Assembly (NCBI GenBank): GCA_947570505.1
Contig: CANOTH010000012.1
Span: forward strand, 1 to 32,313
Direction of reading: 5' to 3'
DNA: 32,313 nt
Source: an uncultured Candidatus Saccharibacteria bacterium
GTDB taxonomy: Bacteria; Patescibacteriota; Saccharimonadia; Saccharimonadales; Saccharimonadaceae
The first letter of the stretch is position 1. The number at the start of each line of letters is the position of its first letter. Of this stretch, positions 11,298 through 28,243 are shown in pieces. A model generated the notes under the pieces. That model did not search any database, was not told the DNA's origin, and saw nothing but the letters and a program-made list of their open reading frames with translations. Position numbers and translations under genes: made by a program.

Positions 11298-11319
11298 AGC
11301 CGCTTTTAGCGGCTTTTTT
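11298..11319 (+). terminator. intrinsic terminator
   Basis: Stem AGCCGC/GCGGCT, loop TTTTA, then a T tract, immediately after the stop of the CHAP-like gene. Confidence 0.85.
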
Positions 11320-11340
11320 CTATTTTGGCTTGATTAGCTA

Positions 11341-11531
11341 TCGTCCGTAGCGGGCATCTCAATATGCATAGAGGTGCCCTGGCTGCAGTTGGTAGTAATG
11401 GCTACAATCGTTCAAGTATGGCTGGTGGGTCAAACTGGGGGCAATTGCTGGGATTTGCAGAAGATGTAGTAGTCCCATCTGATGGTTCGCATGATCGTCA
11501 ATATGGTCTCCCCGTCCGCTGTTTGGTATAG
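11341..11531 (+). pseudogene. orphan C-terminal cassette of a FISUMP-type surface protein (copy 1)
   Basis: An open frame without start (in-frame TGA at 11331) encodes VRSGHLNMHRGAL ... VVVPSDGSHDRQYGLPVRCLV then TAG. The pattern VRSG, inner G-G/Ser positions, VxPS, DR and a terminal GLPVRCLV is that of the C-terminal lobe of the FISUMP/major paralogous domain (C-type-lectin-like). It shares its first 14 bases (11341-11354) and last 24 bases (11505-11528) exactly with copy 2 at 28 kb, while the core differs. The remaining sequence to 11662 holds no gene I can support. Confidence 0.6.
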
Positions 11532-12018: not shown

Positions 12019-12687
12019 TTATTCAAAACTTTTGACTAATAGTCCAAGTGGCGGAAGTAAGTCTGCGTAATGTTCAACTTTCAAAGCAAAACTTAGCGGC
12101 TTAGTCAGCAAAATCCGGGCAAATTTTATTTCGTTCACTCCGATCTGGCCATTCATGTCTGGTCGCAAAGCCTGCTCTAGGCCGTCCCAAAGGTATTTTT
12201 GGTCCACGGACAGCTCCACTTCATTAACGTCGCGGACGAGATTTATTTCTTCCCCAGTCGCACGAGCTAAATTTAAAATTGCCCAAGTCCGCACTAGCTC
12301 CAGAGGCATTTGCCGATGCAATCCATGCAAGATCTGCTTGAGAATTGTGAAAAACTCGGGATTATCGGTCTGCTCAGCCAAGCGATCAAGCCTTTTGAGA
12401 TAATGAGAAGCCAGTTCGAGACGGGGCAAATCGGTCATGATATTGCCATAAAATTTAAGCATTTTGGCACTAGTAAGTGTAGCAAGGTTACTGTGTCCCT
12501 GGTGCATGACTACATCGGCCACGGAAAATAACTCAATTCCTCCAGCGAGACGCGACTTTTCTTTGCGTACCCCACGAGCTAAGACGGCGATTTTACCTTC
12601 TGGAGTAAGTAAGCTAAGGATACGATCTGATTCGCCGTAGTTCGTCCGTCTCAGTACGATCGCGTGAGTACGTAAATCACTAGGCAT
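12019..12687 (-). CDS. recO: DNA repair protein RecO
   Basis: RecFOR-pathway mediator that loads RecA onto SSB-coated DNA. The N-terminal OB fold is clear (THAIVLRRTNYGESDRILSLLTPEGKIAVLARGVRKEKSRLAGGIELFSVADV), followed by the helical domain (LELASHYLKRLDRLAEQ...). At 222 aa it is shorter than E. coli RecO, and the C-terminal zinc-binding cysteines seen in some RecO are absent. It overlaps the receiver gene by 8 bp and is probably translated from the same message. Confidence 0.93.
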   Translation of the reverse strand: MPSDLRTHAIVLRRTNYGESDRILSLLTPEGKIAVLARGVRKEKSRLAGGIELFSVADVVMHQGHSNLATLTSAKMLKFYGNIMTDLPRLELASHYLKRLDRLAEQTDNPEFFTILKQILHGLHRQMPLELVRTWAILNLARATGEEINLVRDVNEVELSVDQKYLWDGLEQALRPDMNGQIGVNEIKFARILLTKPLSFALKVEHYADLLPPLGLLVKSFE

Positions 12688-27976: not shown

Positions 27977-28243
27977 ACTTTATGGAGCAATTACTTCGTC
28001 CGTAGCGGGTGGATCAATCTTGGTATTAGCGGTTTGAGGAGCTTCGGCCACAATGGCAGCGGTTGGTCGCACTCGAGTGTTGCTTACTCGTCTGCTACGT
28101 CGGCTAAAGCTTTCTTCCTCTACTTCGATCCTTTTGGTGTTTACCCGTCCTACGGCCCGTACGATCGTTGGCGCGGTCTCCCCGTCCGCTGTTTGGTAAT
28201 ACTAGTTCATGTGAATCGAGAAAACCGCCAGTTACAATCCTGA
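27977..28243 (+). pseudogene. orphan C-terminal cassette of a FISUMP-type surface protein (copy 2)
   Basis: A startless frame (in-frame TAA at 27974-27976) encodes TLWSNYFVRSGWINLGI ... then SSVAYSSATSAKAFFLYFDP, GVYPSYGPYDRWRGLPVRCLV, running on to a TGA at 28241-28243. The VRSG, WSxSSVAYSSAT, VYPS, YDR and GLPVRCL order is the C-terminal part of the FISUMP/major paralogous domain. The borders 27996-28009 and 28175-28198 are identical to copy 1; the core is unrelated at DNA level. The rest of the 27864-28309 interval holds no supportable gene. Confidence 0.65.

Follow-up and report, generated by a model that had tools for sequence, protein, structure and literature searches.

The stretch of DNA analysed here (the window: 32,313 nucleotides, positions 1 to 32,313 of the forward strand of contig CANOTH010000012.1, from an uncultured Candidatus Saccharibacteria bacterium) carries two short frames that share their edges and differ in their centres. 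The features that concern us are the following.

11341..11531, + strand: headless FISUMP C-terminal cassette of 62 codons and a stop, a DGR-type variable repeat and putatively silent copy
11341..11354, + strand: 5' border of this cassette, TCGTCCGTAGCGGG, encoding VRSG
11505..11528, + strand: 3' border of this cassette, GGTCTCCCCGTCCGCTGTTTGGTA, encoding GLPVRCLV
27996..28198, + strand: second headless cassette, with the same borders and another core
11298..11322, + strand: terminator-like hairpin and T run of the upstream gene, immediately 5' of the first cassette (read directly from the sequence, without a terminator scan)

The borders are exact repeats, TCGTCCGTAGCGGG being identical at 11341-11354 and 27996-28009 and GGTCTCCCCGTCCGCTGTTTGGTA at 11505-11528 and 28175-28198, and the cores between them differ. 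The first cassette begins after a finished upstream gene. These frames, coordinates and borders had been reported in a first-pass annotation made from the sequence alone and held exactly (14 and 24 identical bases, different cores), and that annotation understated the scale of the system. A copy of the first cassette with 7 differences over its length lies at C14:7500, between unrelated flanks and in a tandem array of three cassettes. A gene with a RecO_N domain (E 1.3e-20) is found 0.5 kb away, on the minus strand at window positions 12019-12687; the closeness of this recombination gene to the cassette may be a coincidence.

Cassettes across the genome

The window's own assembly (G000) is a gut Saccharibacteria MAG of 1,228,677 bases in 72 contigs, with 6.47% contamination. 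A DNA search of it with the window cassette returned 59 matches, and a degenerate 18-base pattern of the tail matched 102 times in the whole genome against 3 for the reversed control, with a 23-base form giving 98 matches against 0, which rules out chance or low complexity as the origin of the border repeats. Matches of the 14-bp border alone in a viral sequence collection were taken as chance, the query being too short. All cassette details come from about 517 kb of stretches around matches, somewhat under half of the assembly, the tail count of 102 being genome-wide; in the first set of stretches so taken, TTCGTCCGTAGCGG was counted 84 times. A two-border scan of the 517 kb recovered 109 cassettes, 55 on the plus and 54 on the minus strand, measuring 177-219 bp, divisible by three in 108 of the 109 and interrupted by an internal stop in one. 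With lengths spanning this range and nearly all multiples of three, insertions and deletions have thus been accepted almost solely as whole codons. In most cassettes the frame, followed upstream, is closed by a stop after at most a few tens of codons, without a head, and for the most part the cassettes are intergenic: 10 of the 109 overlap an ORF of at least 150 aa (read-through arrays and the expressed gene included), in stretches of which 67% consists of such ORFs. The median pairwise core identity is 51%. That the cassettes are silent is inferred from their missing starts and heads, without expression data.

Tandem cassettes at C23:388-1049 are joined by read-through into a single ORF (about 237 aa), which might be a polycassette protein or a product of chance. 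Contigs C7, C14, C20, C28, C33, C35, C37 and C52 end inside a cassette; with so many ends of this kind the assembly is broken by the cassette system itself, and counts from short-read MAGs are therefore probably underestimates.

The full-length gene and the predicted fold

A complete head is encoded at only one place in the assembly, in an intact gene of 609 aa at C27:13105-14934, located at a contig end, whose tail is a cassette with the same borders. This tail is the silent cassette C19:7842 (minus strand) base for base from TTCGTCCGTAGCGG to TTTGGTATA, and the flanks are unrelated. The protein has an N-terminal hydrophobic segment resembling an export signal (read by eye), and that it is an exported surface protein is inferred from sequence alone. 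It matches the FISUMP model TIGR02145 with E 3e-8, under the curated cut-off. Because the bare tails have no Pfam or NCBIfam match, the FISUMP label of the first-pass annotation is weak for the tail and is carried by this border-bearing gene. A partial copy of the head stands at the C24 contig end, where the cassette matches silent C7:16570 with one internal difference, and head remnants of differing length adjoin some silent cassettes (C24, C9 and C2); on the basis of these remnants, copying outward from the expressed gene seems to occur as well.

A structure model of the domain in a related full-length protein (L132; mean pLDDT 74, pTM 0.81) resembles the C-terminal domain of Legionella Lcl (Z 7.0, 4.3 A over 113 residues), with further C-type-lectin-like matches to Bd2740 (Z 6.6), to lectins of snake venom and to the DGR protein Mtd of Bordetella phage (Z 5.2). 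These Z values are middling and a Foldseek search with the same model gave no match under E 0.001, so that the structural matches are only supportive of the C-type-lectin-like fold predicted for the variable domain.

Template repeats and adenine bias

In many hypervariable codons the third base is near-constant (C or T) and the first two vary, a pattern that led us to the following template repeats.

C1:62526: template repeat, window's assembly
C2:16766: template repeat, window's assembly
C6:40316: template repeat, window's assembly, now overwritten
C9:36384: template repeat, window's assembly
C15:10966: template repeat, window's assembly
G060:3893: template in an IMG/VR contig

The templates contain FVRSGNVNLNNG, with AAC or AAT at the variable positions, and depart from the cassette sequence right after CCGTCCGC into a common tail, GTCGCGGTTCGGTGCCGATCTTT, of which the assembly holds five copies. 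This divergence meets the DGR feature of a template and variable repeat that differ at their 3' ends (IMH against IMH*), and on account of it the 3' border at 11505..11528 is likely the end of the retrohoming target. Counting was limited to cassettes close to a template. In the window's assembly 233 of 686 template adenines were changed (34%) against 180 of 2821 other bases (6%); the figures were 253/585 (43%) against 71/2028 (3.5%) in the related MAG G062 and 191/380 (50%) against 60/1570 (4%) in G063, and Fisher's test on somewhat larger sets gave odds ratios of 13 and 18 for these two. The cassettes are thus variable repeats of a DGR. This origin is shown for the near-template cassettes; most in the assembly, the first window cassette included, have diverged too much from the templates now present for a DGR origin of their own to be proved. 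Compared with its closest template, C2:16766, the second window cassette is changed at 22/40 A sites and 30/155 other sites.

The DGR likely acts directly on the expressed gene too, since the expressed tail of G062, readable over 86 bp, differs from its template at four positions, 4/4 at adenines, and none of the G062 silent cassettes examined exceeds 91% identity to it. Upstream of the templates, and of some cassettes too, runs a conserved leader of about 250 bp (L305:3642-3890, C14:25367-25615, C11:236-318); judged from sequence alone, it could perhaps be a structured part of the template RNA.

Reverse transcriptases

Two reverse transcriptases in the assembly, on C3 and C22, carry the IGNLTSQ motif, which we take to be a mark of the DGR type. 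The criterion for a DGR-type enzyme is met by an RVT_1 match (E 1.5e-9), by this motif and by homologues beside a template in G062 and G063. The C3 enzyme and ORF331, which precedes it, show 70-77% identity to the corresponding pair in these two MAGs, where a template lies closely 3' of the reverse transcriptase, while the templates of the window's assembly are sited elsewhere: cassette probes found no template beside either the C3 or the C22 enzyme (only flanks were examined), and no template/variable pair was found within 6 kb of the former. A template adjoining the reverse transcriptase is a usual and not an obligatory DGR feature, and we describe this genome as a variant. ORF331, kept beside the reverse transcriptase and considered for the accessory protein Avd, has no match that passes the cut-off of a Pfam or NCBIfam family.

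The C22 enzyme (C22:13216-14643; L070, L307) likely belongs to a separate DGR; its frame opens with an unrelated template-like stretch, NNAWNVNFGSGNFNNNNKYNSNVVRAVAAL, and its N-terminus matches the Lcl adhesin model weakly. A 130-aa ORF beside the C3 enzyme (C3:619-1011; L308) matches CdiA_C (PF18451, E 1.4e-10), and by eye a fragment 3' of the template in G063 (L362) resembles it.

Movement of cores between loci

Among cassette pairs with at least one unrelated flank, four have 100% core identity and five more at least 95%. Conversely, the 100-bp flanks of C28:3782 agree with those of C11:404 on either side (1.00 and 0.99) around cores that are just 45% alike, and a common upstream flank precedes different cores at C21:12995/C23:14199, C2:50030/C9:6263, C19:7842/C16:20807 and C27/C24. 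Since identical flanks hold different cassettes, cores do move between loci; some same-flank pairs may be alleles of mixed strains, and a swap is implied in either case. At the C6 template locus the 3'-most ~161 bp are identical to cassette C15:15127, and the IMG/VR contig G060 (96-99% identity across about 8 kb) retains an N-rich template there; judged against it, the C6 template has been overwritten by a cassette. Exact cassette copies show no adenine changes. Families of repeated 3' flanks (100-bp identity), some with hairpins, stand behind unrelated cassettes at C26:7120, C26:12586, C14:7702 and other sites, and might indicate that larger pieces move too.

Related genomes

The first-pass annotation had proposed a search of related genomes for the borders. 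When 12 related Saccharibacteria MAGs were scanned with the tail pattern, four gave 81-109 matches each (G061 CANEKB, G062 CANDYU, G063 CANBER and G064 CANBEI), those listed being mostly headless, and the remainder gave 6-43. In the parts examined, the 59 cassettes of G062 and the 37 of G063 all lie in one frame with zero stops. Homologues of the C3 reverse transcriptase occur once each in G062-G064 (72-76% identity) and partially in G061 (66%); the template tail occurs once in G062, once in G063 and 13 times in G064. The simplest relatives, G066-G068, have an ordinary DGR of full gene, adjoining template and reverse transcriptase. Across 59 further relatives (35 species of the same genus, 24 of the same order) the exact border is missing altogether or seldom present, with 0-3 pattern matches each. 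The full-length genes of relatives hold the variable repeat inside the gene, as does the C27 gene, whereas the roughly 100 headless cassettes do not. The 13 template-tail sites of G064 (L367, L370-L376) are preceded by N-rich, partly mutated template-like cassettes, as if templates had been overwritten by variable copies, although this is only a possibility.

Discussion

Our findings establish that these cassettes are DGR-type variable repeats detached from genes, that their frame is preserved, and that they are copied from one border to the other among loci, including into or out of the sole full-length gene. The most probable explanation, to which we assign a probability of about 0.74, is a DGR that feeds a genome-wide silent archive whose whole cassettes are exchanged with one expression site, the archive function and the direction of copying being inferred. 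The window cassette would be part of a silent collection of C-terminal domains that serves a single FISUMP surface protein, predicted to be exported and C-type-lectin-like. The ORF331-reverse transcriptase pair on C3 would act in trans on the dispersed cassettes and the expressed tail, recombination across the short common borders would exchange the tail at the expression site for a stored cassette, and expressed tails would sometimes be copied back into storage. The variable face may be a ligand-binding or host-attachment surface, and the net system would be a DGR coupled to silent-cassette gene conversion. Because the 3' end proper to a cassette cannot come from template cDNA, the spread of cassettes to new loci is more likely DNA-based. 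As we have no transcripts or population reads, the use of cassettes as donors remains an inference; the direction of copying is unresolved, though the head remnants beside silent cassettes point outward from the gene.

Two alternative readings in the first-pass annotation, silent donor cassettes for gene conversion and retroelement-diversified variable regions, are both supported and apply to one system. For the former, one full head faces 109 cassettes and the expressed C27 segment equals the silent C19:7842 copy in foreign flanks, which satisfies both the criterion of one expressed and many silent partial copies and that of an expressed segment found silent elsewhere; that segments are transcribed, and in which direction and how often they are transferred, is not shown. 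For the latter, the reverse transcriptase and template repeat that the annotation had suggested seeking were both found, with adenine bias and without a template beside the enzymes of this genome, and orphan tails, likewise among the things it had wanted sought, number about 110. It had named two refuting outcomes, no full-length gene with these borders and cores that never move; neither was met, the gene being present at C27:13105-14934 and the cores shifting between loci of this genome. Its dull reading, degraded gene copies, is disfavoured by the retention of frame in 108 of 109 cassettes of varying length.

The rival that deserves most attention holds that the DGR diversifies the expressed gene and that tail copies leaked by short-repeat recombination are inert debris kept tidy by conversion. 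Head remnants of varied length on the silent copies at C24, C9 and C2 and flank families recurring around many cassettes fit it, and the absence of stops is by itself a weak sign, because DGR changes in AAY codons cannot create them. Whole-codon indels are stronger evidence: varied lengths that remain multiples of three in 108/109, together with the recurrence of some 80-110 copies across several species, argue against leaked debris without excluding it, and the single stop-free frame shared by all cassettes examined in G062 (59) and in G063 (37), like the exact silent cassette carried by the sole full gene, also counts against it, so that we consider it unlikely. More remote still is selfish spread, in which the cassettes would behave as miniature retroposons, short, non-autonomous and set in motion by the DGR reverse transcriptase, with the gene as merely one of their sites. 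Exact boundaries, many sites on both strands and the presence of the enzyme speak for it; against it, template cDNA lacks the cassette 3' end after CCGTCCGC, so new sites cannot come from a template alone, exact copies lack adenine changes, and frame is preserved.

Two further explanations can be all but dismissed. Pure silent-cassette gene conversion of the vls/pilS kind, with no retroelement and with cores differing by drift and selection, would account for mosaic, border-to-border exchange, yet templates exist and changes cluster on their adenines (253/585 versus 71/2028 in G062, 191/380 versus 60/1570 in G063); plain conversion without a reverse transcriptase was dropped once these were found. 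An assembly or binning artefact, in which mixed strains and contaminating contigs would raise the count and produce spurious junctions, finds some support in the 72 contigs, the 6.47% contamination and the many contig ends at cassettes, but the same architecture occurs in separately named MAGs with long contigs (up to 127 kb in G062), and the 96-99% identical IMG/VR contig retains the C6 cassette locus.

Both halves of the preferred reading, a DGR joined to a silent archive, have known counterparts. With DGRs (surveyed in PMC8144416), that of Bordetella phage with its Mtd protein for instance, the system shares the reverse transcriptase, the template and variable repeats, changes directed to adenines and a C-terminal target, here predicted to be C-type-lectin-like. 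Surveyed DGRs have their variable region inside the coding part of a target gene (PMC8144416), whereas here there are about 100 headless copies per full gene, five dispersed templates and unmutated cassette copying, and in G064 there are 13 dispersed template-tail sites. With vls of Borrelia (PMC2632889) and pilS/pilE of Neisseria it shares one expression site, start-less silent cassettes and transfer of a variable segment. The vls system has 15 contiguous silent cassettes that are 90-96% identical to the expressed region (PMC2632889); ours are spread genome-wide, retroelement-diversified and of 51% median core identity. Variable repeats far from the reverse transcriptase are also known from Thiohalocapsa PB-PSB1, whose 15 DGR target genes are the richest example we found (PMC10907252), and from Nanoarchaeota (PMC4372165). 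In such genomes they have been interpreted either as fossils or as targets diversified in trans; only a few target-gene loci are involved there, unlike a headless one-gene library. In the open-access literature searched (most subscription papers were outside its scope) no DGR is described as having about 100 headless variable regions or an archive, and we found no FISUMP paper or pairing of Patescibacteria with silent cassettes. DGRs and silent-cassette systems are each known, and their combination with a headless archive is undescribed in that literature.

A bolder reading is a two-stage repertoire with memory, in which the DGR would invent binding-surface variants and conversion would store useful expressed ones silently and later recall them, much as in the pseudogene-library gene conversion of bird immunoglobulins. 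We are more inclined to doubt this than to accept it. DGRs are known as hypermutators of whole genes and carry no memory; if this reading were true, a DGR, which normally overwrites its own successes, would have gained an archive.

Surveys that seek target genes near a reverse transcriptase (as in PMC8144416) would miss most of such diversity. In these genomes of about 1 Mb the variable parts outnumber the full gene by roughly 100 to 1 and intact variants are exchanged, so that the system joins two diversification strategies known apart and offers a possible explanation of how epibiotic Saccharibacteria could keep altering a surface binder.
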